Below, piece by piece: positions 1,924 to 42,565 of a stretch of DNA of 43,330 nt. A program made the translations under genes and the position numbers. Under the pieces are notes generated by a model. That model did not search any database and was not told the origin of the DNA. It worked only from the letters and a program-made list of their open reading frames with translations. The first letter of the stretch is position 1. The number at the start of each line of letters is the position of its first letter. The DNA comes from a virus, in IMG/VR virus record IMGVR_UViG_3300010332_000003, positions 1-43,330 of that record. One strand, given 5' to 3'.

Positions 1924-2074
1924 GGATAAGCTGGTCAGGATAGAAACAAAGCTCGACTTCGTGGAGCAGCTTCTTAAAAATCATCTGAAGCATCACTGGA
2001 TGGTGGAGCTTGCGCTTCTCGGAGCGATAGTGACCTTTGTCCTGAGCAAAGGCTGGAAATGGCTCGTGAGATAG
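1907..2074 (+). CDS. XhlA-like holin-associated membrane protein (55 aa)
   Basis: A short gene, MRETIKDKLVRIETKLDFVE..., ending in GWKWLVR. A charged coiled-coil-like N-terminal half with an 'R-I-E-x-K-L' heptad is followed by a His-rich linker (HLKHHW) and one transmembrane helix (VELALLGAIVTFVL). This is the layout of the haemolysin XhlA family, which works with a holin to disrupt the membrane. It overlaps the holin-like gene by 17 nt and the terminase gene by 16 nt, and CAGGAGG lies about 7 nt upstream of its ATG. Assignment rests on layout and context. Confidence 0.55.
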   Translation: MRETIKDKLVRIETKLDFVEQLLKNHLKHHWMVELALLGAIVTFVLSKGWKWLVR

Positions 2075-3402
2075 TCTATAAGTACCTCCCTAAGCAGCTG
2101 GAGTTTATGCAGCTGTGTGACAGGATCCCGTTTCCCGCGTATATTGGCGGGTACGGGTCTGGGAAGACGCATGTCTTGGTCTTGCAGATATTAAGGGAGG
2201 CGCAAAGACCGAGCCTAGGCCTGGTAGGAGCTCCGACATACCGTCTTCTGATGGACACAACGCAGAGGAAGTTCTTCGAGTTGTGTCCGCCGGAGTGGAT
2301 AAAGAGCTTCATAAAGTCGGAGAACAAGGTTATAATGCAGAACGGTACGGAGATCCTGTTCCGTACCCTCGACGCTCCGGGAAGGCTAACAAATTTGGAG
2401 TTAAGTTGGTTCGCTTTGGACGAGGTCGGAGAGGTAGACTTAGACGTCTACAGGATGCTCCAGGGAAGGCTTAGGAGACCGAATAGGTCTCACCACGGCT
2501 TCTGTGTCGGGAACCCAGCAGGACCCACGCATTGGACATACCACTATTTCGTCGAGTTAGCGAAGGAGTATCCGGACAGGTATGGTCTCGTCCAGGCATC
2601 TTCCTACGAGAATACCTTCCTGGATGAGGAATACCTAAAGGATATGGAGCTATCCTACGAAGTTGGCTCCTTATACTACAGACGCTTCGTCCTGGGAGAA
2701 TTCGTCACATTCACTGGAGCGTACTGGGCGAACTTCGACCTGAGACCTTACGAGAGAGGCGGCATGGTCCTGAAAGACAAGAGCTGCATAGGCCAGGTAC
2801 TGCAAGGACCTCCAGCAGCCTGGCACTTCGGGAAGGTCATAGACTTCGGCTATGAGCATCCTTTCGTGTGTATGTGGTATGCTACGGATGGCTACTCCAT
2901 AGTATTTTTCGACGAATATTACGAGAAGCAGAAAATAATTCGTGAACACTGCAAGAACATTTATGATAAAGAGGAGGAGCACATAAGATTAGGCTACCCG
3001 CGCCCTGCATTCGCAATAACAGACCACGACGCGCAAGCGAGGGCGGAGATAGCCAACGCACAGGACGGAGATAAGCATATTGGCTTCTCCTGCATCCCTG
3101 CGGAGAAGAAGGTAATGGAGAGTATCCTGTTAGTGCAAACGCTTATCTCCCAGCGGAGATTTTACATTACAGAAGAGTGCAAGCACGCGAGATTGGAGAT
3201 ACCGTCATATAGAGCGAAGCCGGACGTACAAAAGGAGCAGCCTGTGAAGGAGAATGATGATACGTGCGACTGCGTCCGGATGGCTTGTTGGATGGAGATG
3301 CGGCAAACTCCTGAGGTGCCGAGAGTGACTGAGCCTCAGTTCGTAAGAGAAGAAGAGCCGGAGATAGTCGACTTCGATGATTTGATAGAGATACCGCGAT
3401 GA
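2059..3402 (+). CDS. terL: Terminase large subunit
   Basis: The DNA-packaging motor and nuclease, 447 residues, normal length for the family. The ATPase half has a Walker A motif GGYGSGKT (residues 30-37) and Walker B plus catalytic acid WFALDEVGE (D121, E122). The nuclease half shows the expected spaced acids: VIDFGYEHP (near residue 264), AITDHDAQ (near 318) and a late Asp in DTCDCVRMACW. It acts at the portal vertex, cutting concatemeric DNA and pumping it into proheads. It is followed directly by the portal gene (4-nt overlap). No small terminase lies upstream; a candidate is found far away on the minus strand at the right end. Confidence 0.93.
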   Translation: MAREIVYKYLPKQLEFMQLCDRIPFPAYIGGYGSGKTHVLVLQILREAQRPSLGLVGAPTYRLLMDTTQRKFFELCPPEWIKSFIKSENKVIMQNGTEILFRTLDAPGRLTNLELSWFALDEVGEVDLDVYRMLQGRLRRPNRSHHGFCVGNPAGPTHWTYHYFVELAKEYPDRYGLVQASSYENTFLDEEYLKDMELSYEVGSLYYRRFVLGEFVTFTGAYWANFDLRPYERGGMVLKDKSCIGQVLQGPPAAWHFGKVIDFGYEHPFVCMWYATDGYSIVFFDEYYEKQKIIREHCKNIYDKEEEHIRLGYPRPAFAITDHDAQARAEIANAQDGDKHIGFSCIPAEKKVMESILLVQTLISQRRFYITEECKHARLEIPSYRAKPDVQKEQPVKENDDTCDCVRMACWMEMRQTPEVPRVTEPQFVREEEPEIVDFDDLIEIPR

Positions 3403-4820
3403 ACAAGAAGCATCCAGTCCTGGACAATTATGACAAGGTCCGTCAAGAATTTCTAACGAGGACCATTGTAGGAGAGACGCCGAGCAGGCCTATAACGGAC
3501 CCGCACGGCTTCTACCTGCAGAACCCGAACTTCCTCTTTGAGCGGTATGCAGGTGTCGACAAGCTCTTCCATACTCTAGTAAAGAATGTTGTAGAGGACC
3601 CGGACTTCGCCCTCAAGAAGGATCCAAAGGTCTACGAAAGGATGCTCCGGGATCCTCAAATCTATTACTGCTTGGGAGTTCGGAAGAGCGCGGTATCTTC
3701 CCTGGAATGGCACATAGCTCCTCCTGAAGGGATGGAGCAGGATGAAATGGCACGGCGGATCGCCAACGAATGCAACAAGAGACTGAAGAGAGCACCTCGT
3801 TTTGAGGAGTTGATCGATAATATCATGGACGCTCTCCTACCGGGAGTGTCTGTGAATGAGATAGTCTGGACCTACGACAAGGATAAGGATCTCTACATCG
3901 TGAAAGACCACTTCCCGGTGAACAAGGATAGAATCCTCTTCGACAAAGACGGGAGACTAAAACTAAAGCAGCCGGGGAAGTGGCAAGGTGAATATGTTCC
4001 GCCTTACAAATTCATTGTACATGTAGTGAACCTTGCGGACGGCTCCTGGCAGAAGCCTCACACTATCGGATACTCCTACTACGGAAGAGGCTTAGCTGAC
4101 ACTCCGCTCTACCACTACTTCTACTTCAAGATGATGGCTCTAAGATATTACATGAAAGCGATGGAGCGGAATGCGTCTCCTGTGAAGATCTTCTACTCCG
4201 GAGCGCAAAACACCTTGATGGCTAAGAAGATGGCTTCTATCCTGACCGCTTTGCAAAATGACTCCGTGGTAGGAATACCTGGGAAGAAAGGAGACATGGC
4301 TGTCGATATCCTGAGGCTTGTAGGACAGCCTGCTCTCTTCACCAGCTTTATAGAGTATATTGATAAGCTGATTACCAGGACAATCCTGTTCCAAGAGCTG
4401 ATGACAGAGATGCCTGCTGTCGGCTCGTATGCCGCCGCGCGCGTGCATGCTTCCGTTTTCGCAAGAATAAGCGCGCTGGATAGAAAAAAGGTAGAAGAGA
4501 CTCTCACCAGGACCTTGGTAAGGTGGGATATACAGCTCAACTATCCGCAGCTGAAGGAAGACTACTACCCCAGGTTCCGGTTTAAGGAGAGCGCGACGTT
4601 AGACACCGCGGCTTTCTTACAGACAGTTCAGATGGCACTGGATTTAGGCTTGGATGTAAGCGAAGCGCAGGTAAGGGCGGCTACTGGATTGCGTGCGCCT
4701 GGTCCTGGCGAGAAGTCAATGCTGGATCTTGTGAAAGATGCCCGGAAGAAGCTCGAAGAAGAGGAAGGAATACGACCCGAAGTACATCAGAGAGTACCTG
4801 AAGGAGCTGAGACAGCATAA
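3399..4820 (+). CDS. Portal protein, DUF935 / Mu gp29 type
   Basis: A 473-residue portal protein that forms the dodecameric DNA gate at one capsid vertex. The DUF935 (Mu gp29-like) signature is seen as DPQIYYCLGVRKSAVSSLEW near the start (about residues 85-105), ALLPGVSVNEIVW (about 144-156), the Pro/Val-rich HFPVNKDRI, and the late YAAARVHASVF helix that usually contacts the crown/wing. It overlaps terL by 4 nt. In Mu the next head gene is the gp30/SPP1 gp7-like minor head protein; none is recognised here, and a set of unusual basic proteins takes that place. Confidence 0.88.
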   Translation: MNKKHPVLDNYDKVRQEFLTRTIVGETPSRPITDPHGFYLQNPNFLFERYAGVDKLFHTLVKNVVEDPDFALKKDPKVYERMLRDPQIYYCLGVRKSAVSSLEWHIAPPEGMEQDEMARRIANECNKRLKRAPRFEELIDNIMDALLPGVSVNEIVWTYDKDKDLYIVKDHFPVNKDRILFDKDGRLKLKQPGKWQGEYVPPYKFIVHVVNLADGSWQKPHTIGYSYYGRGLADTPLYHYFYFKMMALRYYMKAMERNASPVKIFYSGAQNTLMAKKMASILTALQNDSVVGIPGKKGDMAVDILRLVGQPALFTSFIEYIDKLITRTILFQELMTEMPAVGSYAAARVHASVFARISALDRKKVEETLTRTLVRWDIQLNYPQLKEDYYPRFRFKESATLDTAAFLQTVQMALDLGLDVSEAQVRAATGLRAPGPGEKSMLDLVKDARKKLEEEEGIRPEVHQRVPEGAETA

Positions 4821-8454: not shown

Positions 8455-9053
8455 GACCCTTCCGAAGATTTCGCTTATGGCTAAAAGGCGCAGGCGCGAT
8501 GCGCAAGAAGCCCATACGCGAGGCGGTTATGAGCGCCACGAAAGGCTTCACAGGAGCTGCAAGACCTCCTGCAATGAGAGCGGCGCGTCTAACCGCAAGA
8601 CGTCTCCTTGCACAGAGGAGAAGGAGGTTGCTGAGAAGAGTAGGTGTAGGCGTAGGCGTCCTCGGAGCAACAACAGCAGCAGCCAAAATGAAAGGAAGGA
8701 CCTTGTTCCCAGAACCGCCGAGCGTAGAGGCAATGGAACGCGGGTACGGACCTTACTACGAGAACCAGGAAAGGGTAGAGATGTACCCTTTCGTAAGCGA
8801 AGCTCAGAGACGCTGGATGTGGCTGCATCACCCAGAGATGGCGAAGAGATGGGAAGAGCACACACCTAAAGGGAAGAAACTGCCGGAAAGGAAACATCCT
8901 GTGAAGTGGGTGTGCCCAAGATGCGGCCATACGACCATGGCACTAAAGCAGCCCACTTGCAGCAAATGCGGAGTGAAGATGAAAGAAGTCCTGAAAGTGC
9001 AGCACGAGATAGTTGAGAAAGCTATCTCCTATGGAATAGCGAGGAGAGTATGA
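8451..9053 (+). CDS. Head-module protein E: basic N-terminus, SEAQRRWMW motif and zinc ribbon
   Basis: A 200-residue protein. Residues 1-65 are Arg/Ala-rich like its neighbours and end in a glycine-zipper helix (VGVGVGVLGATTAAA). Residues 115-142 hold SEAQRRWMWLHHPEMAKRW followed by a Lys/Pro stretch, a motif that recurs in many phage proteins of unknown role. The C-terminal 50 residues contain a four-cysteine zinc ribbon, CPRCGH ... CSKCG. No YSL copy is seen, though RVEMYPFVSEA resembles the context. It joins the basic cassette to metal-binding nucleic-acid modules. The role is unknown. Confidence 0.65.
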   Translation: MRPFRRFRLWLKGAGAMRKKPIREAVMSATKGFTGAARPPAMRAARLTARRLLAQRRRRLLRRVGVGVGVLGATTAAAKMKGRTLFPEPPSVEAMERGYGPYYENQERVEMYPFVSEAQRRWMWLHHPEMAKRWEEHTPKGKKLPERKHPVKWVCPRCGHTTMALKQPTCSKCGVKMKEVLKVQHEIVEKAISYGIARRV

Positions 9054-10573
9054 AAGTCAAGATACCAAAACCACCAGAGCTAGACCCGGAATGGAAGAGA
9101 CTGTACCTCTCCTCTCTCCAGGTTTTGAGCGGGCGGGATGCTGACGACCCTGAAGCGAAGAAAGCGATCAAGCTCCTACGAGAGCTCGACGCTGCGCTGT
9201 TCAGGACAGGGAGAGGCGGGTGCTGGATACCTGAGCCTGTCGACGGGAGGTATCCGGAGATAGATACTACAAAAATGAGTCTCAGCACCCTGAGCAGGGC
9301 GATAAGGAAGAAAGCGGAGAACAGGGAGAGGGAGTGGAAGCACCTCAGACAGTACCAGTACGAAGATGTTGACACAGAGAAACTCAAAGGCTATTTTGCG
9401 ATGCTACTGCGGCAGCTAAAGTTAGCGCGGCAAGGAAGAGGGAGGGAAAGTATAGACATAAGAAAGAAACTCTTCGCGGTAGCGGATGAATTGGAGAAGA
9501 GAGGAGTGCAAGTGGATATTCCAGAAGCTGTTCCTATGAGGTACTCCCTCACACTGCCGAAGGACTGGCCAGACGCGTACGCGGAGGCATTGAGGAGGTT
9601 CGCGACAGCTACCAGTCCTGTGGAGAAGTCGAAGGCTGCCGGTGATTTGGCAATCCTCTCGCACGTCGCAAGGATGTGCGGAAGAGGAAAGCCGTGGTAT
9701 CCGAAGAGCACGGATGTGACAATAGACCCGGACAAAATCTCTTTGCAGAAGATAAAGCGAGCCGTCAGGGCGAATACTTCGCCGAAGATAAGAGCCAGAA
9801 CCTGGCGCTCTATCCTACGAGAAATTTCCCCTGGTACTGAGCTGTGGCGGGAAGCTGCTCCTGAGACAGCTCAGTACGAGAAGGAGATTGAGATACCGAA
9901 AGGCTTCGGCAAGATACCTCCTGGCTGGAACGCAAGGAGATTGTACATAGAACTGAAGAAGATGGGTCTGTCGGACATAGACGCTCTCGCACAAGCGCTG
10001 ACGGTAGCTCCCTGGACACCCGGGCGGACATCGCGGTACCTGGGCGTTGTCACTCCAGCGGAGCTTAAGAAGAAGCTCACAGGACGCCACAGACCCACGC
10101 TAAAGGATGTATCGCCGGAGGAATGGGAGATGGTGGGATTCCAACCTCTGAAGAGATACGAAATTCTGTGCTACGCGGAAGGCGAAGAAGCCGGCCGGGA
10201 GTGGATAAAAGCGCATCCTATCTACTCTCGGTGGAGGTATTTTTGGAACAGACTGAAGAGGAAGCTAGGTCTGATAAAGAAATCCCTCCAAATGGAAGCT
10301 CTACCAGCGATAAAGAGGCAGATGGCTATCCAGACCCTTGCAGCTCTGCAAGGAGAATTGCCGATGCCGTCTCTGATGGTAGGACATACTCCTGTGACGA
10401 GACAAGGCTTCTTCGACTTCCTGCAAAGCTATCCGAATGTACAGCTAAGAGCAATGCGCAAGAAACTGCTGCAGAGAGCGGCAGTAGAGAAGGACCCGGC
10501 TGTTCAGAAGGAGCTGAAGAAACAGGCAGCACGAATAGAAGCGGAGCTAACTTTGAGAGGAGCTCCGCTATAA
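9050..10573 (+). CDS. 507-residue head-module protein with an internal duplication
   Basis: A large helical protein, 4-nt overlap with the cassette. Two units are homologous: residues about 11-105 and 168-262 share a GRGxxW signature (54-59 and 211-216), then K-[MI]-SL-x3-[ SI]-x-RA-[IV]-R (75-86 and 229-240) and an R-x-W-x3-LR end (W96 and W252), a constant offset of 154-157 residues. The second unit begins immediately after VPMRYSL (Y165), the motif of the upstream cassette. The rest is helical and basic, ending TLRGAPL. No family recognised. It occupies the place of a Mu gp30-like minor head protein, so an internal or minor capsid role is likely. Confidence 0.65.
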   Translation: MKVKIPKPPELDPEWKRLYLSSLQVLSGRDADDPEAKKAIKLLRELDAALFRTGRGGCWIPEPVDGRYPEIDTTKMSLSTLSRAIRKKAENREREWKHLRQYQYEDVDTEKLKGYFAMLLRQLKLARQGRGRESIDIRKKLFAVADELEKRGVQVDIPEAVPMRYSLTLPKDWPDAYAEALRRFATATSPVEKSKAAGDLAILSHVARMCGRGKPWYPKSTDVTIDPDKISLQKIKRAVRANTSPKIRARTWRSILREISPGTELWREAAPETAQYEKEIEIPKGFGKIPPGWNARRLYIELKKMGLSDIDALAQALTVAPWTPGRTSRYLGVVTPAELKKKLTGRHRPTLKDVSPEEWEMVGFQPLKRYEILCYAEGEEAGREWIKAHPIYSRWRYFWNRLKRKLGLIKKSLQMEALPAIKRQMAIQTLAALQGELPMPSLMVGHTPVTRQGFFDFLQSYPNVQLRAMRKKLLQRAAVEKDPAVQKELKKQAARIEAELTLRGAPL

Positions 10574-25330: not shown

Positions 25331-25684
25331 ATGGAGAGACACATCACCTGGGAAGAGGTGAGGGAGAGGTGTCGAGACATACATAAGTGGATACGACAGC
25401 ATCTTCCTACACCGTGTAAGGTATATGGGATCCCGAGAGGCGGATCCTGGGTTGCTCTTATGTTGTTTGCTATGGGAGGAGTGCAGCTATGTTGTGAGAA
25501 GGAAGCAGACTTGATAGTAGATGAGATCGCAGACACGGGTAAGACCCTGTCCAAGTATAGGTATAGATTGACAGCGGTCATGTACAGCAGGAAGGATTGC
25601 AAAGTTGCAACCTTCTCCGCGGAAGAGGTTGGACCAGAGTGGTTAGTCTTTCCATGGGAAAGGGAGAGGAAACTTTTCTGTTGA
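25331..25684 (+). CDS. Phosphoribosyltransferase-family protein
   Basis: A 117-residue type I phosphoribosyltransferase-like protein. The PRPP-binding loop is LIVDEIADTGKTL (residues 61-73), matching the family pattern of hydrophobics, two acids and T/S-G-x-T. VYGIPRGGSW (31-40) is the conserved 'g..rGG' loop that binds pyrophosphate, and VGPEWLVFPWE near the end matches the 'w..fPwe' end of xanthine/hypoxanthine enzymes. It is shorter than cellular enzymes (about 150-180 residues). It may salvage a purine or deazapurine base; substrate cannot be told from sequence. It ends 4 nt into the promoter at 25681. Confidence 0.75.
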   Translation: MERHITWEEVRERCRDIHKWIRQHLPTPCKVYGIPRGGSWVALMLFAMGGVQLCCEKEADLIVDEIADTGKTLSKYRYRLTAVMYSRKDCKVATFSAEEVGPEWLVFPWERERKLFC

Positions 25685-35398: not shown

Positions 35399-35752
35399 AT
35401 GAGGTTCTATTGTAAAGTTACGGGTACATTTGATGCTGCACACTCCATAAAAGGATATGAAGGGAAGTGCGGACAGCTACATGGTCACACCTGGAAGGTA
35501 ACCGTATATGTAGAAGAGAATGCGGAGATCGTATGCGAGAACGGCTATGACGTAGACCTTTCGCAGCTGAAGGCGGATCTGAGAGAAGTCCTCGAAGAGA
35601 TGGATCACCGGGATCTAAATTACCTCTTTAGTAAACCGACAGCGGAGAACATAGCAAGGCGAGTATTTCGAGCACTGTACCGCAAATATAATATATTCAA
35701 GGTAGAAGTAGAAGAGACCCCAGGAAGCGGAGTGATCTTCACCAATGATTAA
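35399..35752 (+). CDS. queD: 6-carboxytetrahydropterin synthase
   Basis: A 117-residue QueD of normal length. It converts dihydroneopterin triphosphate into 6-carboxy-tetrahydropterin. Metal and catalytic features: FDAAHSIKGYEGKCGQLHGH has the zinc His residues (AAH, HGH) and the catalytic Cys of GKC; DHRDLN and PTAENIAR are family motifs; the end VEVEETPGSG is typical. It overlaps queE by 8 nt and lies in the row queD-queE-folE-dpdA. Confidence 0.95.
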   Translation: MRFYCKVTGTFDAAHSIKGYEGKCGQLHGHTWKVTVYVEENAEIVCENGYDVDLSQLKADLREVLEEMDHRDLNYLFSKPTAENIARRVFRALYRKYNIFKVEVEETPGSGVIFTND

Positions 35753-36314
35753 GATGCATGAAATCTTCACGAGCGTACAGTTTGAAGGGAGTAAATACGG
35801 AACGCCTTCCCAGTTCTATAGGTTCTGGGGATGCAACCTGAAGTGCGAGGATTGCGACACTCCACAAGAGGAGTGGGATTGGTTTCCCTTCGAGCCGGAG
35901 TGGGCACGTCCGCGGTGGAAGCATGTCGTCATCACAGGAGGAGAGCCGACTATACAGGCGGACGGTTTGCTTGCATTAGTCAAAGTTCTGCTGAAGAACG
36001 GGCACAGCGTACAGGTAGAAACAAACGGAACTCACCCACGAATACTCGAGCTACTTCCTGACGAAGTCTTCATCACGGTCTCTCCGAAAAAGGGATCGAG
36101 AGGAGATGCTATAACCTTGGCAGATGAGGTGAAGATCGTTCCTGGCATGAGCCCTGAGACTTTCATCGAACAGGCTCTGGAGAAAGACAAACCCGTCTTC
36201 ATACAGCCAAATGCGATGCACGAGGACGGGTTAGAGGAAGCTATACAGTATATCAAGAAGTACCCGGACGCAAGGTTGAGTATACAGGTACATAAGTTAT
36301 TAGGATGGAGGTGA
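35745..36314 (+). CDS. queE: 7-carboxy-7-deazaguanine synthase (radical SAM)
   Basis: A 189-residue radical SAM enzyme. It rearranges 6-carboxytetrahydropterin into 7-carboxy-7-deazaguanine. HEIFTSVQFEGSKYGTPSQF is the family opening; the cluster motif C-x3-C-x2-C is in FWGCNLKCEDCDTP; SAM contacts are in HVVITGGEPTIQ and VETNGT; and the end IQVHKLLGWR is a QueE signature. It is on the short side for the family, as in other phage forms. Confidence 0.94.
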   Translation: MIKMHEIFTSVQFEGSKYGTPSQFYRFWGCNLKCEDCDTPQEEWDWFPFEPEWARPRWKHVVITGGEPTIQADGLLALVKVLLKNGHSVQVETNGTHPRILELLPDEVFITVSPKKGSRGDAITLADEVKIVPGMSPETFIEQALEKDKPVFIQPNAMHEDGLEEAIQYIKKYPDARLSIQVHKLLGWR

Positions 36315-36316
36315 CC

Positions 36317-36904
36317 ATGGACGGCAAAGATATCCTCAATAAGTGGAACAACATTCCGCTAGGCGATGTCATGATTGGAGCGGGAGAGGATCTTGAAGCC
36401 GATGACGTTTTGAAGACGCCGGACAGGTTCCTCTCCGCTTTGCAGGAGATGATCGCAGGCTATGAGCAAGACCCTCTGGAGATAGCCACTTCGGCTGTCT
36501 TTCCCTTCGAAGAAGGGTCACCGTATGTAGTTGTGCGGGATATAGACTTCATGTCTATATGCCGCCATCATCTGCTGCCCATCATCGGGGTAGCTCACGT
36601 AGGATACAAGGTGAATGAGAGCGTGATAGGACTATCAAAAATCCCGAGAGTGGTTGAAGCGTGGGCACGTAGATTGCAGGTACAGGAGAAGATGACCGAG
36701 GAGATCGCAGACACAATAGACCAGGCGATAAACCCGGAAGGTCTCCTGGTCGTAGTAGAAGGAAGACACCTGTGCTGCACAGGAAGAGGAATAAAGAAGA
36801 CCCACGCTACAATGGTCACAGCAGCAGAAAGAGGTGAAGTCGATAGCTTTTTAAGGAGGCTCGTCTGTGGATGTATGTCTAATCGTTCCTCCCGCTCATA
36901 TTGA
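36317..36904 (+). CDS. folE: GTP cyclohydrolase I
   Basis: A 195-residue FolE. It opens GTP to dihydroneopterin triphosphate, the first step of preQ0 synthesis. Features: KTPDRFLSALQEM, the zinc Cys/His in IDFMSICRHHLLP, VIGLSKIPRVVEAWARRLQV, and the second zinc Cys in VEGRHLCCTGRGIKK. It is not QueF: the sequence keeps the FolE GLSK/R-x-[VA] helix and the two Cys and His of the zinc site. The ATG at 36317 follows GGAGG; one at 36305 is less well placed. Overlaps dpdA by 38 nt. Confidence 0.93.
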   Translation: MDGKDILNKWNNIPLGDVMIGAGEDLEADDVLKTPDRFLSALQEMIAGYEQDPLEIATSAVFPFEEGSPYVVVRDIDFMSICRHHLLPIIGVAHVGYKVNESVIGLSKIPRVVEAWARRLQVQEKMTEEIADTIDQAINPEGLLVVVEGRHLCCTGRGIKKTHATMVTAAERGEVDSFLRRLVCGCMSNRSSRSY

Positions 36905-37664
36905 GGTCACGCGAGCGTTCCAGGGTAGATTTTGTATAGGAAGCGTGGCTCTCCGAAATCGCAGGTACAGGGATTTCTTCCGGTACGCTGCGAGAGAGGA
37001 GGGTCTTATTGTCATCCTGGACAATGGAGAGTATGAAGGAGAGAGGCTATCGGACGATGACTTGCTCCGCTTGGCAGACTACATTGATGCTTCTCTCGTC
37101 GTCGCACCTGACAGGATCGGCTGTCCAGCATGGGAGAATTTGAAGATGCAGCTTGCATTTCAAAGGAAGTGTCAGCGTCCGACAATGTTTGTAGGACAGC
37201 TCAACCCTGAAGGCGGCGAAGAGGAGAGAAGAGCTTTCTTCGAAACCTTCCAGATAGCACTGGACGCATTCCCGGCAGTGTCCATAGGGCCGAAGGCGGT
37301 TTCGTGGCTCTACGGGAAGGATCCGGTCAGAGATGACTCTAACAGATGTAAATGTCAGTTCGACTTCTGGCTGCGGCAGATACCGCACAGCAACTATGTA
37401 CACTTCTTGGGTTTAGACGATGAGTATATGTGGCTTCAGTACTGGAAGACACCTAATTCAGTAGATACAGCGTCTCTCTTCTGGCAGGTGATGGAAGCCT
37501 CCGTCGAGGAATTGCCATATCTCTTTGACGAAGAAGGCTTCCACTCCCGCCGGAGGAGACCAGAAAATTATTTCGAGAAGGAATATGAGATGACGACGGT
37601 GAAGAGAAGAGCGCTGGAGAGGCTCTTCTCTTTAGTTCATCACTACGCACTTGGAGAAGAGTGA
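36867..37664 (+). CDS. dpdA: DNA-guanine transglycosylase-like protein
   Basis: A 265-residue member of the tRNA-guanine transglycosylase superfamily in the phage DpdA size class, much shorter than TGT (about 370). It exchanges guanine in DNA for a 7-deazaguanine base. Motifs: ILDNGEYEG (50-58), VVAPDRIG (78-85), FVGQLNP (108-114), VSIGPKAV (138-145), YVHFLGLDD (177-185) and NSVDTAS (197-203). The acids in DNG and PD are the likely catalytic pair. It starts at GTG 36867 with SD TTAAGGAGG. It lies after folE and before the DNA polymerase. Confidence 0.88.
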   Translation: MDVCLIVPPAHIEVTRAFQGRFCIGSVALRNRRYRDFFRYAAREEGLIVILDNGEYEGERLSDDDLLRLADYIDASLVVAPDRIGCPAWENLKMQLAFQRKCQRPTMFVGQLNPEGGEEERRAFFETFQIALDAFPAVSIGPKAVSWLYGKDPVRDDSNRCKCQFDFWLRQIPHSNYVHFLGLDDEYMWLQYWKTPNSVDTASLFWQVMEASVEELPYLFDEEGFHSRRRRPENYFEKEYEMTTVKRRALERLFSLVHHYALGEE

Positions 37665-39421
37665 TGCAGGTACTGGATCTCAGCGAATACCCTGCCGAGA
37701 TGATAAATAGGAAAGACCTGCCTGTCGCGATAGACACAGAGACGGCAGGGACGAACTATGTTCCGTACTACTTCTCCTGGGCTGCGAAGGATCTAGGAGC
37801 AGGAGGCGGTCCTTTCCTCTCCCCGAAGGGAGGTCCTTTCATAAAGAAGTTGGCAGAGTCTTCTCGCCCGAAGATTTTTCATAACTGCAAGTTTGATATA
37901 AGGGTCTTGGCTCAGTTAGGTATTGAAGTAAAAGGAGAGATACACGATACCTCTTTGATGCATGCTCTCCTAGATGAGCATCACATAGAAGCTCATAGGT
38001 TGAAAGCTCTCGCCAGGGAGATTTTAGGGCGTCCGCGTTTGGACGAATATGAGTTACATGAAGAGCAGAGAAAGTACCCTAAGGAGGAGATGAACCTGCA
38101 TGTACCTCAGACCCTCCTTCACAAGTATGCGGTCGCGGACGCACAGGACACATTAGACCTCTTCTACGTCTTCAAACCGCAGCTCATAGAGGAAGGTCTG
38201 TGGGATCTCTACAGAGATGAGGTTGCAGCCGCTCTCGTCTATTTAGAGATTGAGGATAGAGGCGTCCTCGTGGACATGAACGCTCTGGACAGTGCATGGA
38301 AGGAGATCATCCACGCGCAGAACATAATCCAGGCGAAGGTGTGGGAGCTGTTTGGACAGGAATTTAAATTGTCTTCTCCGCGACAAGTAGGAGAAGTGAT
38401 GGGTCGCATCTTTGCTCTTACGGAAAGGACGCCGACAGGTCAGTGGCGCGTCTCAAAGCAAGTGCTGGAGAAGTATATCGACGATCCAAGGGTCCAGTAC
38501 TACTTCGCCTGGAAGTTTTTGGATGCGGCAAGAGCGAAGTTGGAGAATTATGCCAGGTGCATGCACGAAGACGGGAGGCTGCATCCTTCCTACAGACAGA
38601 CGACAACGACAGGAAGGACCGCATGCTCCGAACCTAACTTGCAGAACATACCTAAGCAGCGAGGGAGAATTACAGAGGTAGAAGTAGGAGATCCGGAGCT
38701 AGCGAAGATGTGTAGAGAAGCTTTCCGCTCTACGCGGAGGGTGTTCGTAGCTCCGGAAGGCGCTACTCTCTACTCCTTCGACTACTCTCAGATAGAGTAC
38801 AGAGTAGCAGTCCACTACACTGGAAGTAAGAGGTTGATTGAAGCTTTAAGGAGAGGCGAAGATGTTCACTCCATGATCTGCCAACTGGTGTTTGGCAAGG
38901 TAGATCCGCGTACACGCCACATCACGAAGATGATAAACTACGGCTGCTTATACGGGATGGGAATGGGTACACTAAAGCAAAAGGTCCTGCAAGGAGAGCC
39001 GGGCGTAGATGCGGAATACACCATGCGGTTGTACAGACAGAAATCACCTGAGCTGCTACAGCTGCAGAGAGAAGCTACGTTGGTAGCTCAGCGGAGAGGT
39101 TATGTGAAGGATGTTTTTGGGAGGAAGTACAGGTACGATCCTGATAGACCCTACGCAATGGTCGCCTGGCTCTGTCAAGGAACAGCAGCCAACATCAAGA
39201 AGTATGCTATAAGGCGTGTCCATGAGATCCTGAAAGGGAGGAGAAGCGGGATCATCATGGACATACACGACGAGATCGTGTTGGAAGTATATCCGGAGGA
39301 CGAACACCTCTTACCGAAGATAAAGGAAGCGATGGAGGACTTCCCTCAATTCTCTGTCCCTATCACTGTGGACGCAGCAAAAGGACCAAATCTGCTGGAC
39401 ATGGAAGGGGTTGAGCTATGA
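37664..39421 (+). CDS. DNA polymerase, family A, with 3'-5' exonuclease
   Basis: A 585-residue replicative polymerase. The exonuclease has AIDTETAG (Exo I, Asp/Glu), FHNCKFDIRVL (Exo II) and KYAVADAQDTLDLF (Exo III, Y-x3-D). The polymerase has TGRTACSEPNLQNIPKQ, motif A YSFDYSQIEYRVAV, motif B ITKMINYGCLYGMG and motif C IMDIHDEIVLEV. No 5' nuclease domain. All catalytic residues are present, so it should proofread. The motif B position usually governing sugar choice is Tyr/Cys-containing NYGCLYG, as in other phage enzymes. It sits between dpdA and the second queC-like gene. Confidence 0.93.
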   Translation: MQVLDLSEYPAEMINRKDLPVAIDTETAGTNYVPYYFSWAAKDLGAGGGPFLSPKGGPFIKKLAESSRPKIFHNCKFDIRVLAQLGIEVKGEIHDTSLMHALLDEHHIEAHRLKALAREILGRPRLDEYELHEEQRKYPKEEMNLHVPQTLLHKYAVADAQDTLDLFYVFKPQLIEEGLWDLYRDEVAAALVYLEIEDRGVLVDMNALDSAWKEIIHAQNIIQAKVWELFGQEFKLSSPRQVGEVMGRIFALTERTPTGQWRVSKQVLEKYIDDPRVQYYFAWKFLDAARAKLENYARCMHEDGRLHPSYRQTTTTGRTACSEPNLQNIPKQRGRITEVEVGDPELAKMCREAFRSTRRVFVAPEGATLYSFDYSQIEYRVAVHYTGSKRLIEALRRGEDVHSMICQLVFGKVDPRTRHITKMINYGCLYGMGMGTLKQKVLQGEPGVDAEYTMRLYRQKSPELLQLQREATLVAQRRGYVKDVFGRKYRYDPDRPYAMVAWLCQGTAANIKKYAIRRVHEILKGRRSGIIMDIHDEIVLEVYPEDEHLLPKIKEAMEDFPQFSVPITVDAAKGPNLLDMEGVEL

Positions 39422-40023
39422 TTATGGTTGCGTGCAGCGGCGGGATGAAGAGCGCGTTAATGATAGAGTACGCGAAGCGGGAGAAGAAAAAGGTTCTCCT
39501 CGCGTACATTAGAAGAAGGATCCCCGCAGAGAGGAAGGAATTAAGGTGCGTACATGAGTTGGCTGCTCATCACGGATTGGACCTCATAATCCGAGAACTT
39601 CCTGCCAGGGAGAGGAATGTAATGCTGGGGCCTCTCCTGTATTGGTATCTCCTGTACATCGCCGAGATGTATAAATGCAGGGAGCTGTGGATAGGAGTAT
39701 CCGCAGAAGATACTGGACCGGAAGCAGAAGAGGGTTTCTTCCGTTTGATGTCTGCGATGCTGGAGAAGGTGCAGCCGATGTATGATGAATTCGGTCTCTT
39801 CAGAGGAGACCGATTGGACATCCAGACACCTCTTCTGCAGCTGACGCACGAACAGGTAGTTATACTGGGAGAGAAGTTTGGTGTACCATGGACACTAACT
39901 ACATCCTGTTTGAGAGGAGGGCGGTTCGACTGTGGAGAGTGCGAAGGCTGTGCTCGTAGGAGAACCGCCTTCTTCTTTGCGGAGGTGGAGGACCCGACGC
40001 TCTATGCGAAGACTAGCAATTGA
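39418..40023 (+). CDS. Divergent second QueC-like ATP-pyrophosphatase-fold enzyme
   Basis: A 201-residue QueC relative. The zinc site is preserved exactly: Cys 164, 172, 175 and 178 in SCLRGGRFDCGECEGC, with spacing identical to the other QueC, followed by ARRRTAF. But the ATP loop is SGGMKS (7-12), with Lys in place of the almost invariant Asp, and the YGQ(R/M)H substrate segment is replaced by YIRRRIPAER. It may have gained a new step, perhaps acting on preQ0 or on a base after insertion, or it may have lost catalysis. It overlaps the polymerase by 4 nt. Confidence 0.75.
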   Translation: MIMVACSGGMKSALMIEYAKREKKKVLLAYIRRRIPAERKELRCVHELAAHHGLDLIIRELPARERNVMLGPLLYWYLLYIAEMYKCRELWIGVSAEDTGPEAEEGFFRLMSAMLEKVQPMYDEFGLFRGDRLDIQTPLLQLTHEQVVILGEKFGVPWTLTTSCLRGGRFDCGECEGCARRRTAFFFAEVEDPTLYAKTSN

Positions 40024-40450
40024 CCCGTCGATAAATACCGTAGGATGGGCCGTGGAAGAAGACACTATACGCTTCGGCACCATCAAGGTGAAGGGAGTAG
40101 ATATTCCTGAGAGAATAAAGCGGATAGTACAGCTTTTAGATGAGAAGGTAGAAGGACGCTTCGATGAGATCCTCATCGAGATGCCTGGTCCATTTGGCTC
40201 CTACAAGAGCTTAGGGTCCTTCTCCAGTACAAGCCTCTTTAAATTGAGTTTTGCAACAGGCGCTATCGTCCTATGGGCAACTGGGAGGTCTGACAATGTG
40301 AAGTTGGTACCTGTAGCGACGTGGAAAGGGCAATTGCCGAAGCACGTAGTATATGAGAGGATTAAGAGGGATTACCCGGATGTAAAGAGCGATCACGAAG
40401 CGGATGCTATAGGTATCCTTCTGTGGAGGAGAAGAAATGAAGAAAGATGA
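40004..40450 (+). CDS. RuvC-like Holliday junction resolvase
   Basis: A 148-residue RNase H-fold nuclease. Acidic sites: RLAIDPSINTVGWAV (first Asp with the 'DPs...tGwa' strand), EILIEMPGPFGS (Glu), and SDHEADAIGILLW (the late D-x2-DA). The middle VPVATWKGQLPKHVV matches the RuvC 'p...K....G.g.A.K..V' segment. It would cut branched replication intermediates before packaging. The ATG at 40004 is chosen; the longer frame lies in the upstream gene. Confidence 0.78.
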   Translation: MRRLAIDPSINTVGWAVEEDTIRFGTIKVKGVDIPERIKRIVQLLDEKVEGRFDEILIEMPGPFGSYKSLGSFSSTSLFKLSFATGAIVLWATGRSDNVKLVPVATWKGQLPKHVVYERIKRDYPDVKSDHEADAIGILLWRRRNEER

Positions 40451-41353: not shown

Positions 41354-42054
41354 AGAGCTATTACGTTCTTTACTACCTTATAGGGAGATCCTATTTTGAG
41401 CGTTTCTGGGAAGACGCTCGCAGCATGGACGGTCCTATCGAAGCGCCTTCTCCTGTACATGCTCTTGCGCTGGTAGTTCTCCCAAGGTATTGCGAGAAAG
41501 ACGACACCCCAGAAAAACTAAAAACTATGACTGACTGGGGTGTTTTGCGGAGGATCAAGAGATGCTGGGGAGAGCCATACACGCTCGAGCGTAGAGGAGA
41601 TACATTGTTCTGGTATGGCGAGAACCTGAAAGCAGCTGTAGCTACTTCTCCTTCGAGGGCTACAGCTCTCTTCTTGAGAGGAGAAAATAGAAAGAGGAAG
41701 GTTATGTACTGGGTGGTTTTCAAGAAGTACGAGGATAGCTCTGACTATGACAGACCGACAGGGTGGTACTATCTCACCAGAGAAGCGGTCACTCCTCTCG
41801 AAGCTCTGGCTCGCGCGTATTACTGGGATGATATGATGGCGCACTGCAATAGGATATTCTCGGAAGAGTGCATGCGGAAGTACTTCCGAGACATCATGGA
41901 AATCAGAATTTTCAAAGAGACAACGAGAACCCTGTGCGGAGCGGATATACCTCACGTTTTCGGAGTCGCGCCTACAAGAGAAGAGGCGATAAGGCTTTGC
42001 CGAGAAGCGTCAAGAAGGGAAGGAAGAGATGACACGAAGGGAGATAGAGTGTGA
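41350..42054 (+). CDS. SYYV-domain protein, double unit (234 aa)
   Basis: Residues 1-115 are a paralog of the previous gene (MKSYYVLYYLIGRSYF, GPIEAPSPVHALALVV, AAVATSPSRATALFLR). Residues about 118-225 look like a further diverged unit: MYWVVFKKYEDSSDYDRPT, EAVTPLEALARAYYW, and HVFGVAPTREEAIRLCREA. So the domain occurs three times in two genes. The end is charged. Function unknown. Confidence 0.6.
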   Translation: MKSYYVLYYLIGRSYFERFWEDARSMDGPIEAPSPVHALALVVLPRYCEKDDTPEKLKTMTDWGVLRRIKRCWGEPYTLERRGDTLFWYGENLKAAVATSPSRATALFLRGENRKRKVMYWVVFKKYEDSSDYDRPTGWYYLTREAVTPLEALARAYYWDDMMAHCNRIFSEECMRKYFRDIMEIRIFKETTRTLCGADIPHVFGVAPTREEAIRLCREASRREGRDDTKGDRV

Positions 42055-42565
42055 GTTTGCCCAGGAATGCGGAGCAGAGGCGGGTCCTGTCTTAGGAGCA
42101 GGTCCGACGGATGCTCGCATAGCCCTCATCGGGAGAAATCCTGGGAGGATGGAGATTGTAAATGGTCTTCCTTTCGTCGGACCTGCAGGCCGGAAGTTAG
42201 ATGAAGCTCTGAAGATAGCCGGTCTCGATAGGAAGACACTGTATATTACGAATGTCGCGAAGTGCATGTTTCCGGGAGACGCGCCTCCGTCGAAGAGTTG
42301 CATAAAGAGATGCGTTGAAAAGTACTTGCTAAAGGAGCTGGAGAGCTTGAAGAACCTGGAACTAATTATTACCTTGGGGAACGAAGCTCTTCAGCTATTC
42401 CTTCCGACCGCAAGGATAGGCTCTTTCCACGGTATATTTTTCGACGCAGAGAGGTTTTGGAAAGTAAAAGTTTTTACGAGCTTCCATCCGAGTGCTGCTC
42501 TGAGGTCTGCGAAATATGATGAGTTGTTTCTCCAGGACTGGCGTCAGCTGGCTCGAGCTTTATAA
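42029..42565 (+). CDS. Uracil-DNA glycosylase superfamily protein (family 4/5-like)
   Basis: A 178-residue glycosylase-fold protein. IALIGRNPGRMEIVNGLPFV with GPAGRKLDEAL is the active-site opening of family 4/5 enzymes (G-x-N/P-G-x-x-E ... G-x-PFVG-x-AG). TLYITNVAKCMFPGD and LELIITLGNEAL follow, and KVFTSFHPSAALRS carries the final HPS motif. Cys at about residues 8 and 14 and in SCIKRCVEK could hold an Fe-S cluster, but the spacing is not standard. It may remove uracil or another base. Its 3' end overlaps a minus-strand gene by 92 nt. Confidence 0.8.
   Translation: MTRREIECEFAQECGAEAGPVLGAGPTDARIALIGRNPGRMEIVNGLPFVGPAGRKLDEALKIAGLDRKTLYITNVAKCMFPGDAPPSKSCIKRCVEKYLLKELESLKNLELIITLGNEALQLFLPTARIGSFHGIFFDAERFWKVKVFTSFHPSAALRSAKYDELFLQDWRQLARAL

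Follow-up and report, generated by a model that had tools for sequence, protein, structure and literature searches.

A divergent QueC-family protein lacking the loop aspartate beside a viral DNA polymerase gene

QueC makes 7-cyano-7-deazaguanine (preQ0) from 7-carboxy-7-deazaguanine (CDG) with ATP, and its relatives include Gat-QueC, the archaeosine synthase of phages and archaea, Cap9 of type IV CBASS (cyclic oligonucleotide-based antiphage signalling system) and QatC of the qatABCD defence system. In the available text of PMC13329287, where canonical QueC, QatC and Cap9 are clusters 1, 2 and 9 of PF06508, alanine substitution of Y35, R99, Y131 or Y189 abolishes the function of E. coli QueC. 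The accessible part of PMC13279940 describes base recognition in QueC and Cap9 by the Tyr and Asp of a YPDC motif, and coordination of the ATP beta- and gamma-phosphates by the QatC loop residues S156, D160 and S161. Here we describe QueC2 (the name is given here), a divergent member of this family encoded in the IMG/VR virus record IMGVR_UViG_3300010332_000003, whose 43,330 bases, the whole stretch of DNA analysed, are called the window. Its gene stands directly after a gene for a protein tentatively likened to DpdA and a family A DNA polymerase gene (polA), and a canonical QueC (QueC1) is encoded elsewhere in the window.

39418-40023, + strand: QueC2, divergent QueC-family protein of 201 amino acids, one intact open frame
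39436-39453, + strand: PP-loop SGGMKS of QueC2, residues 7-12, with Lys11 at the place of the Asp
39721-39723, + strand: Glu102 of QueC2, at the place of the YPDC Asp
39907-39951, + strand: zinc-cysteine motif of QueC2, C164-x7-C172-x2-C175-x2-C178
26360-27007, + strand: QueC1, canonical QueC with SGGLDS, YGQMHFKE, VPFRN, YPDC and SCY

The QueC2 translation begins MIMVACSGGMKSALMIEY and has SCLRGGRFDCGECEGCARRR near its C-terminal end, and QueC1 contains SCYKGGDKHCGKCPTC. Against Pfam QueC (PF06508, gathering cut-off 22 bits), QueC2 scores 74.1 bits (E = 1.4e-20; for QueC1, E = 6.1e-52), a homology to the QueC family that is far beyond chance. On the other hand, QueC1 passes the QueC equivalog model TIGR00364 (cut-off 150.3 bits) with 156.1 bits, and QueC2 fails it with 45.7. 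An earlier note on this DNA had called QueC2 a second QueC paralog, and these scores bear it out: QueC2 is a genuine second member of the family and differs from canonical QueC. The loop SGGMKS and the zinc-cysteine spacing shared with QueC1 (Cys-x7-Cys-x2-Cys-x2-Cys), which the note also pointed out, were both confirmed.

Relatives of QueC2 were sought in the viral_contigs collection. Scans with single sequences (QueC2 or the DpdA-like protein) gave no relative, and a first scan with the window polymerase gave 12 distant loci, none with QueC. Alignment-based scans gave two more QueC2 proteins, one on a 17.3-kb contig (L023, loop SGGLKS) and one on a 55.6-kb contig (L102, loop TGGICS), where the polymerases are 43% and 51% identical to the window's, respectively. 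The QueC2-alignment scan returned these two and 7 further loci, in which no loss of the loop Asp was seen (the loop of one, L192, was unread by the pattern), and scans with the DpdA-like pair and with a three-polymerase alignment returned only already known contigs. All three QueC2 proteins pass the PF06508 cut-off (window 74.1, L023 70.0 and L102 65.8 bits). A family search, in which some QueC-family ORFs (open reading frames) appear as two matches in one frame, found two such ORFs in each of the three records, one of them QueC2 and the other a plain QueC in the window and L102 and a Gat-QueC in L023.

The residues of QueC2 were compared over 167 non-identical ORFs, 164 from the rest of the family and the three QueC2, with identical ORFs collapsed and duplicate loci of the two related contigs skipped; triplets below are in the order window, L023, L102. 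The loop Asp is D in 162 of the 163 others with a letter there (one has N) and K, K, C in QueC2. G, R, L replace the YPDC Tyr (Y in 160 and F in 4 others), H, D, I replace Lys165 (K in 163, R in 1), and L, L, E replace Tyr189 in E. coli numbering (Y in 163, L in 1), the window residue being Leu165 at the place of this essential Tyr. The YPDC Asp, found in 164/164 others, is Glu in all three QueC2. In a 50-row alignment, which omits L130 (with a stop codon) and L152, the Tyr of YxQxHxxE (46/47 others) is R, H, H and the Arg of VPxRN (46/47 others) is R, K, K. QueC2 has none of the canonical SGGxDS, YxQxHxxE, VPxRN, YPDC and Tyr189, the window protein retaining only RN of VPxRN, with K and L at this place in the L023 and L102 proteins. 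Three of the four residues essential in E. coli QueC are gone from every QueC2, and the place of the fourth, R99, is R, K, K. Retained are the four cysteines of the zinc motif C(x)7-8CxxCxxC, the two loop glycines, the last loop Ser, Arg181 and Phe185.

One pattern in the first alignment scan spelled the loop [DK]S, so the L021-L100 loop counts are biased to D/K. In a genome scan with patterns outside the loop, every ORF had D but for L135, with N, and the truncated L157; the pattern used to read the loop misread that of L183. The loop change in QueC2 is real rather than a sequencing quirk, because the relatives also lack the Asp, and none has the normal residue that would have told against the earlier note. 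Lys11, whose conservation in relatives the note proposed to check, is not conserved, the residues being Lys, Lys and Cys. Lys11 was dropped as a key residue because L102 has Cys there; the conserved feature is the absence of the loop Asp, not Lys itself. A Walker-A-like reading of SGGMKS was rejected by eye because there is no Gly before the Lys. Incidentally, a cellular QueC-like protein in a Phycisphaerae metagenome-assembled genome (L135, 7977-8684), with SGGLNS and YPDN, without VPxRN and on a long branch, is a candidate for another repurposed QueC.

From these losses, QueC2 has very probably given up preQ0 synthesis. Because the loop Asp is replaced and the base-stacking Tyr gone, it is very unlikely that QueC2 makes preQ0 from CDG with ATP, and the replacements of the Asp would be unable to hold Mg2+ in the same way. 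The earlier note had suggested a new step, such as activating or amidating a deazaguanine. A role other than preQ0 synthesis is indeed likely, but ATP activation of a deazaguanine is unlikely because the phosphate-loop Asp and the three essential residues are gone, and amidation of preQ0 to archaeosine (G+) is weakened because the L023 QueC2 coexists with a Gat-QueC that should do that step.

The fold has been kept in the predicted structure. An AlphaFold2 model of QueC2 is a confident QueC fold (predicted local distance difference test, pLDDT, 92.9; predicted template modelling score 0.89). Its best solved match is Cap9 (PDB 9NTO; Z 21.7, root mean square deviation 2.2, 175 aligned), followed by canonical QueC (PDB 3BL5 and 2PG3, Z 20.7 and 19.0; for the former value, deviation 2.4, 179 aligned) and then QatC (Z 15.8). 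With a difference of about 1 in Z, Cap9 and QueC are taken as tied by this model. A profile of the three QueC2 searched against PDB sequences matches Cap9 at 6e-11 and B. subtilis QueC at 3e-7. When QueC2 was scored with profiles of the known groups, the best was cellular canonical QueC (105.8-108.6 bits), then phage QueC (93.4-102.7), with lower scores for Gat-QueC (55.1-93.0) and for Cap9 (29.6-48.1), whose profile consists of two sequences only.

Kinship was examined in two trees, the first with 62 of 108 non-redundant rows and the second with five Gat rows removed and four rows added (Cap9 twice and two plasmid QueC-like proteins). QueC2 forms one clade in both (support 92/95 and 96/98), and Gat-QueC is separate from it in both (99/98 and 100/100). 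Cap9 groups elsewhere than QueC2 in the second tree, with an approximately unbiased (AU) test of QueC2 plus Cap9 giving p 0.28. An idea based on BLAST, that QueC2 is the QueC half of Gat-QueC without its amidotransferase, was dropped because of the profile scores and the trees; the AU test of QueC2 plus Gat-QueC (p 0.40) does not reject that grouping.

Compared with the described systems, QueC2 is nearest in profile to canonical QueC, with which it shares the PP-loop SGG and Ser, the cysteine spacing, Arg181 and Phe185, and from which it differs in the residues listed above and in being shorter before the RN motif. Cap9 is similar in length and has in its zinc motif a Cys-Glu also present in the L102 QueC2, but it keeps SGGxDS and YxDC beside a CD-NTase (L193), whereas QueC2 has lost both and neighbours polA and a RuvC-like gene. 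Gat-QueC, which gives the top tblastn matches of the window QueC2 in the phage collection (1e-15), keeps SGGxDS and YPDN and has an amidotransferase domain, which QueC2 lacks; no glutamine amidotransferase domain was found in the window. QatC, in which the accessible part of PMC13279940 describes a remodelled base site with Tyr and Asp replaced, is about 400 amino acids long with extensions and keeps SGGxDS, unlike QueC2. QueC2 gave no match to the PADLOC QatC model, and no qatA, qatB or qatD was seen among the scanned window genes.

The window genes around QueC2, and their counterparts in the two relatives, are as follows.

35399-35752, + strand: QueD
35745-36314, + strand: QueE (radical SAM)
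36305-36904, + strand: FolE (GTP cyclohydrolase I)
36867-37664, + strand: DpdA-like protein of 265 amino acids, resembling tRNA-guanine transglycosylase (TGT), tentative assignment (L023, 3105-3920; L102, 4815-5636; phrog_20335 in all three)
37661-39421, + strand: polA
40004-40450, + strand: RuvC-like resolvase, overlapping the QueC2 3′ end, start taken from the translation (family searches used 40010-40447)
42029-42565, + strand: uracil-DNA glycosylase (UDG) superfamily protein (L023, 8661-9233; L102, 10145-10747)
25331-25684, + strand: phosphoribosyltransferase-like protein, upstream of QueC1

The start codon of QueC2 and the stop codon of polA overlap within ATGA (39418-39421), and an AGGGG sequence precedes the ATG by 7 nt. 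Third-codon-position G+C is 0.60 in QueC2, near that of polA (0.58) and the DpdA-like gene (0.57) and unlike that of QueC1 (0.46). The genes from QueE to QueC2 lie at 0.56-0.60, and QueC1, from its lower value, may be a later arrival in the phage genome.

The order in L023 is an AAA protein, two genes, QueE, FolE, the DpdA-like protein, polA, a CsrA-like gene, QueC2, a RuvC-like gene, one gene, a ligase-like gene (by eye), UDG and Gat-QueC with SGGLDS. In L102, it is QueD, QueE, FolE, a phosphoribosyltransferase, a small gene, the DpdA-like protein, a small gene, polA, QueC2, a DnaJ-like zinc protein, a RuvC-like gene, UDG and canonical QueC. Common to all three records are the DpdA-like gene, 0-1 gene, polA, 0-1 gene, QueC2, 0-2 genes and RuvC, with UDG further on. 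We propose a QueC2 subfamily defined by a lost loop Asp, Glu at the YPDC Asp and four Cys, together with a place between polA and RuvC and a second QueC-family gene elsewhere. These features are present in 3/3 records, and judged from the sequences QueC2 is a real, conserved and unusual subfamily of the known QueC family.

In tblastn searches of 50,697 phage records, the window QueC2 matched 175 records and the L102 QueC2 97. Because each record was matched at one place in both searches, no described phage with a second QueC-family copy was seen at that sensitivity. No report of a second or dead phage QueC was found in the open-licence papers searched.

The earlier note was right about the position of QueC2 after the polymerase and the gene it called dpdA, but the dpdA label itself rests on weak evidence and is kept here as tentative. 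All 50 PDB matches listed for a model of the DpdA-like protein are TGTs (Z 6.8-7.2), from a poor model (pLDDT 52.8), and its invariant residues include the Asp of LDNG and the Asp of SVDTA. By the model, the family is possibly a new short DpdA subfamily.

As a tentative explanation, which we favour without much confidence, QueC2 may bind a base as a partner of the DpdA/polymerase module, with no catalysis of its own or at least none that uses ATP. The PP-loop ATPase fold and the zinc-cysteine cluster are kept, and what QueC needs to turn CDG into preQ0 with ATP has been lost. The conserved Glu standing where an Asp normally reads the base would bind a 7-deazaguanine (or guanine) base, and QueC2 would hold, hand over or sense the base made by the separate QueC or Gat-QueC, with the neighbouring DpdA-like transglycosylase and the polymerase as its partners. 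The constant Glu, the kept fold and the place by polA and the DpdA-like gene suggest that QueC2 still has a job, and the change from Asp to Glu in all three fits a kept base recognition. Because QueC2 coexists with plain QueC and with Gat-QueC, its role should be the same whichever base a phage makes, and this points to a step after base synthesis. The shared third-position G+C of QueC2, polA and the DpdA-like gene is in line with this explanation.

In phage 9g, preQ0 from Gat-QueC was inferred to be channelled to DpdA, according to the available text of Hutinet et al. (PMC6884629). By analogy, and this is a guess, a hand-over of this kind would be a fitting task for a catalytically dead QueC able to bind the base and to contact the DpdA-like enzyme. 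If so, a QueC-fold protein that once built the base with ATP might now, with no ATP-pyrophosphatase chemistry, bind it as part of a module for phage DNA modification and replication, a change that we regard as conceivable. QueC2 would then represent the first lineage of the QueC family to lack the loop Asp, and would serve DpdA or the polymerase by escorting, sensing or, without ATP, modifying 7-deazaguanine. It would point to an unrecognised component of phage 7-deazaguanine DNA modification, with a gene fixed by polA in distant phages. How the base passes from synthesis to DNA is an open question of the pathway, in which QueC2 is a possible link.

Several observations weigh against a base-binding partner of DpdA and the polymerase. 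The partnership with either protein is drawn from gene order alone, and base binding by Glu102 is read from the alignment, with the stacking Tyr gone. The residue replacing the loop Asp varies (K, K, C), a pattern as compatible with relaxed constraint as with a new function. The DpdA-like protein has no Pfam TGT match in any of the three records, its profile shows no significant similarity to six phage DpdA/TGT proteins already known, and it gave no useful match among PDB sequences. QueC2 has three members, all from uncultivated contigs. The window protein is only 28% and 26% identical to the other two, sits on a very long branch and scores best by BLAST with Gat-QueC and canonical QueC rather than with the L023 and L102 proteins; its assignment to QueC2 comes from gene order, shared losses and the tree, not from BLAST.

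Among the other explanations, an inactive subunit regulating or stabilising QueC1 or Gat-QueC by pairing with it, close to the regulatory partner of the first QueC suggested in the earlier note, is unlikely, yet holds up best. Regulation of an active protein by its inactive paralogue is a known pattern, QueC2 has the same fold as QueC (Z 20.7), and a canonical or Gat-type partner is present in each phage. However, QueC2 lies about 12.4 kb from QueC1 in the window and also apart from its counterpart in L102 and L023, and with partners that differ (QueC versus Gat-QueC) one conserved interface is less likely.

It is somewhat less probable that QueC2 is a new ATP-independent amidating enzyme, which would add ammonia to the preQ0 nitrile, free or in DNA, to give G+, or would perform another late base step. 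Other known synthases make G+ from preQ0 with no need of ATP. In the available text of PMC6884629, the QueC domain of Gat-QueC is part of the G+ synthase. The window and L102 have no QueF match except one inside FolE, below the cut-off, and neither has a glutamine amidotransferase domain, so a G+ step there would need another enzyme (no search aimed at ArcS was made). Nevertheless, L023 has QueC2 and Gat-QueC together, the profile scores of QueC2 are nearer canonical QueC than Gat-QueC, and no new conserved nucleophile is evident among the three QueC2.

QueC2 could also be a reader of modified DNA or a replication accessory, recognising 7-deazaguanine in DNA by polA, RuvC and UDG, which we consider improbable. 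It is in the replication module in all three phages, and the three proteins are neutral to mildly basic (isoelectric points 6.9, 8.4 and 6.9), but they carry no strong positive charge and no DNA-binding feature was identified in them.

There is little to recommend a preQ0 synthase that diverges fast yet is still active or redundant, or a gene copy in decay. The kept fold and long branches would agree with it. However, the frame is intact, the gene holds the same place in three phages with polymerases 43-51% identical to the window's, and the four Cys, the same Asp-to-Glu change and the loss of catalytic residues are found in 3/3.

Least probable of all is a Cap9/QatC-type decoy, an inactive QueC that would keep type IV CBASS or Qat defence from deazaguanylating proteins, since despite the Cap9 profile match (E = 6e-11), the fold tie (Z 21.7 vs 20.7), the Cap9-like length and the Cys-Glu of the L102 protein, QueC2 lies in a conserved replication module rather than a variable locus, is not joined to Cap9 in the tree (AU p 0.28, no rejection) and is scored far higher by canonical QueC profiles than by the two-sequence Cap9 profile.

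Other features were observed along the way. On two Rhizobiaceae plasmids (L194 and L195), QueC-like genes stand among genes for a PfkB-type kinase, an annotated DNA lyase and TIR-domain proteins, a neighbourhood that looks like a defence type. Phosphoribosyltransferase-like genes with a motif of the phosphoribosyl pyrophosphate (PRPP) type lie near deazaguanine genes in two of the three phages (window, 25331-25684; L102, 4056-4571), and the PRPP-type pattern had no match in the 17-kb L105 contig. The CsrA-like regulator between polA and QueC2 of L023 (5774-5998) matches Pfam CsrA at 7e-7. In L102, QueE (1926-3485) is split by an intein-like insert with LAGLIDADG domains, and the protein between QueC2 and the RuvC-like gene (8606-9460) has DnaJ-like zinc repeats with a weak Pfam match. 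The UDG-superfamily protein downstream of the RuvC-like gene has GRNPG in its first motif in all three phages.

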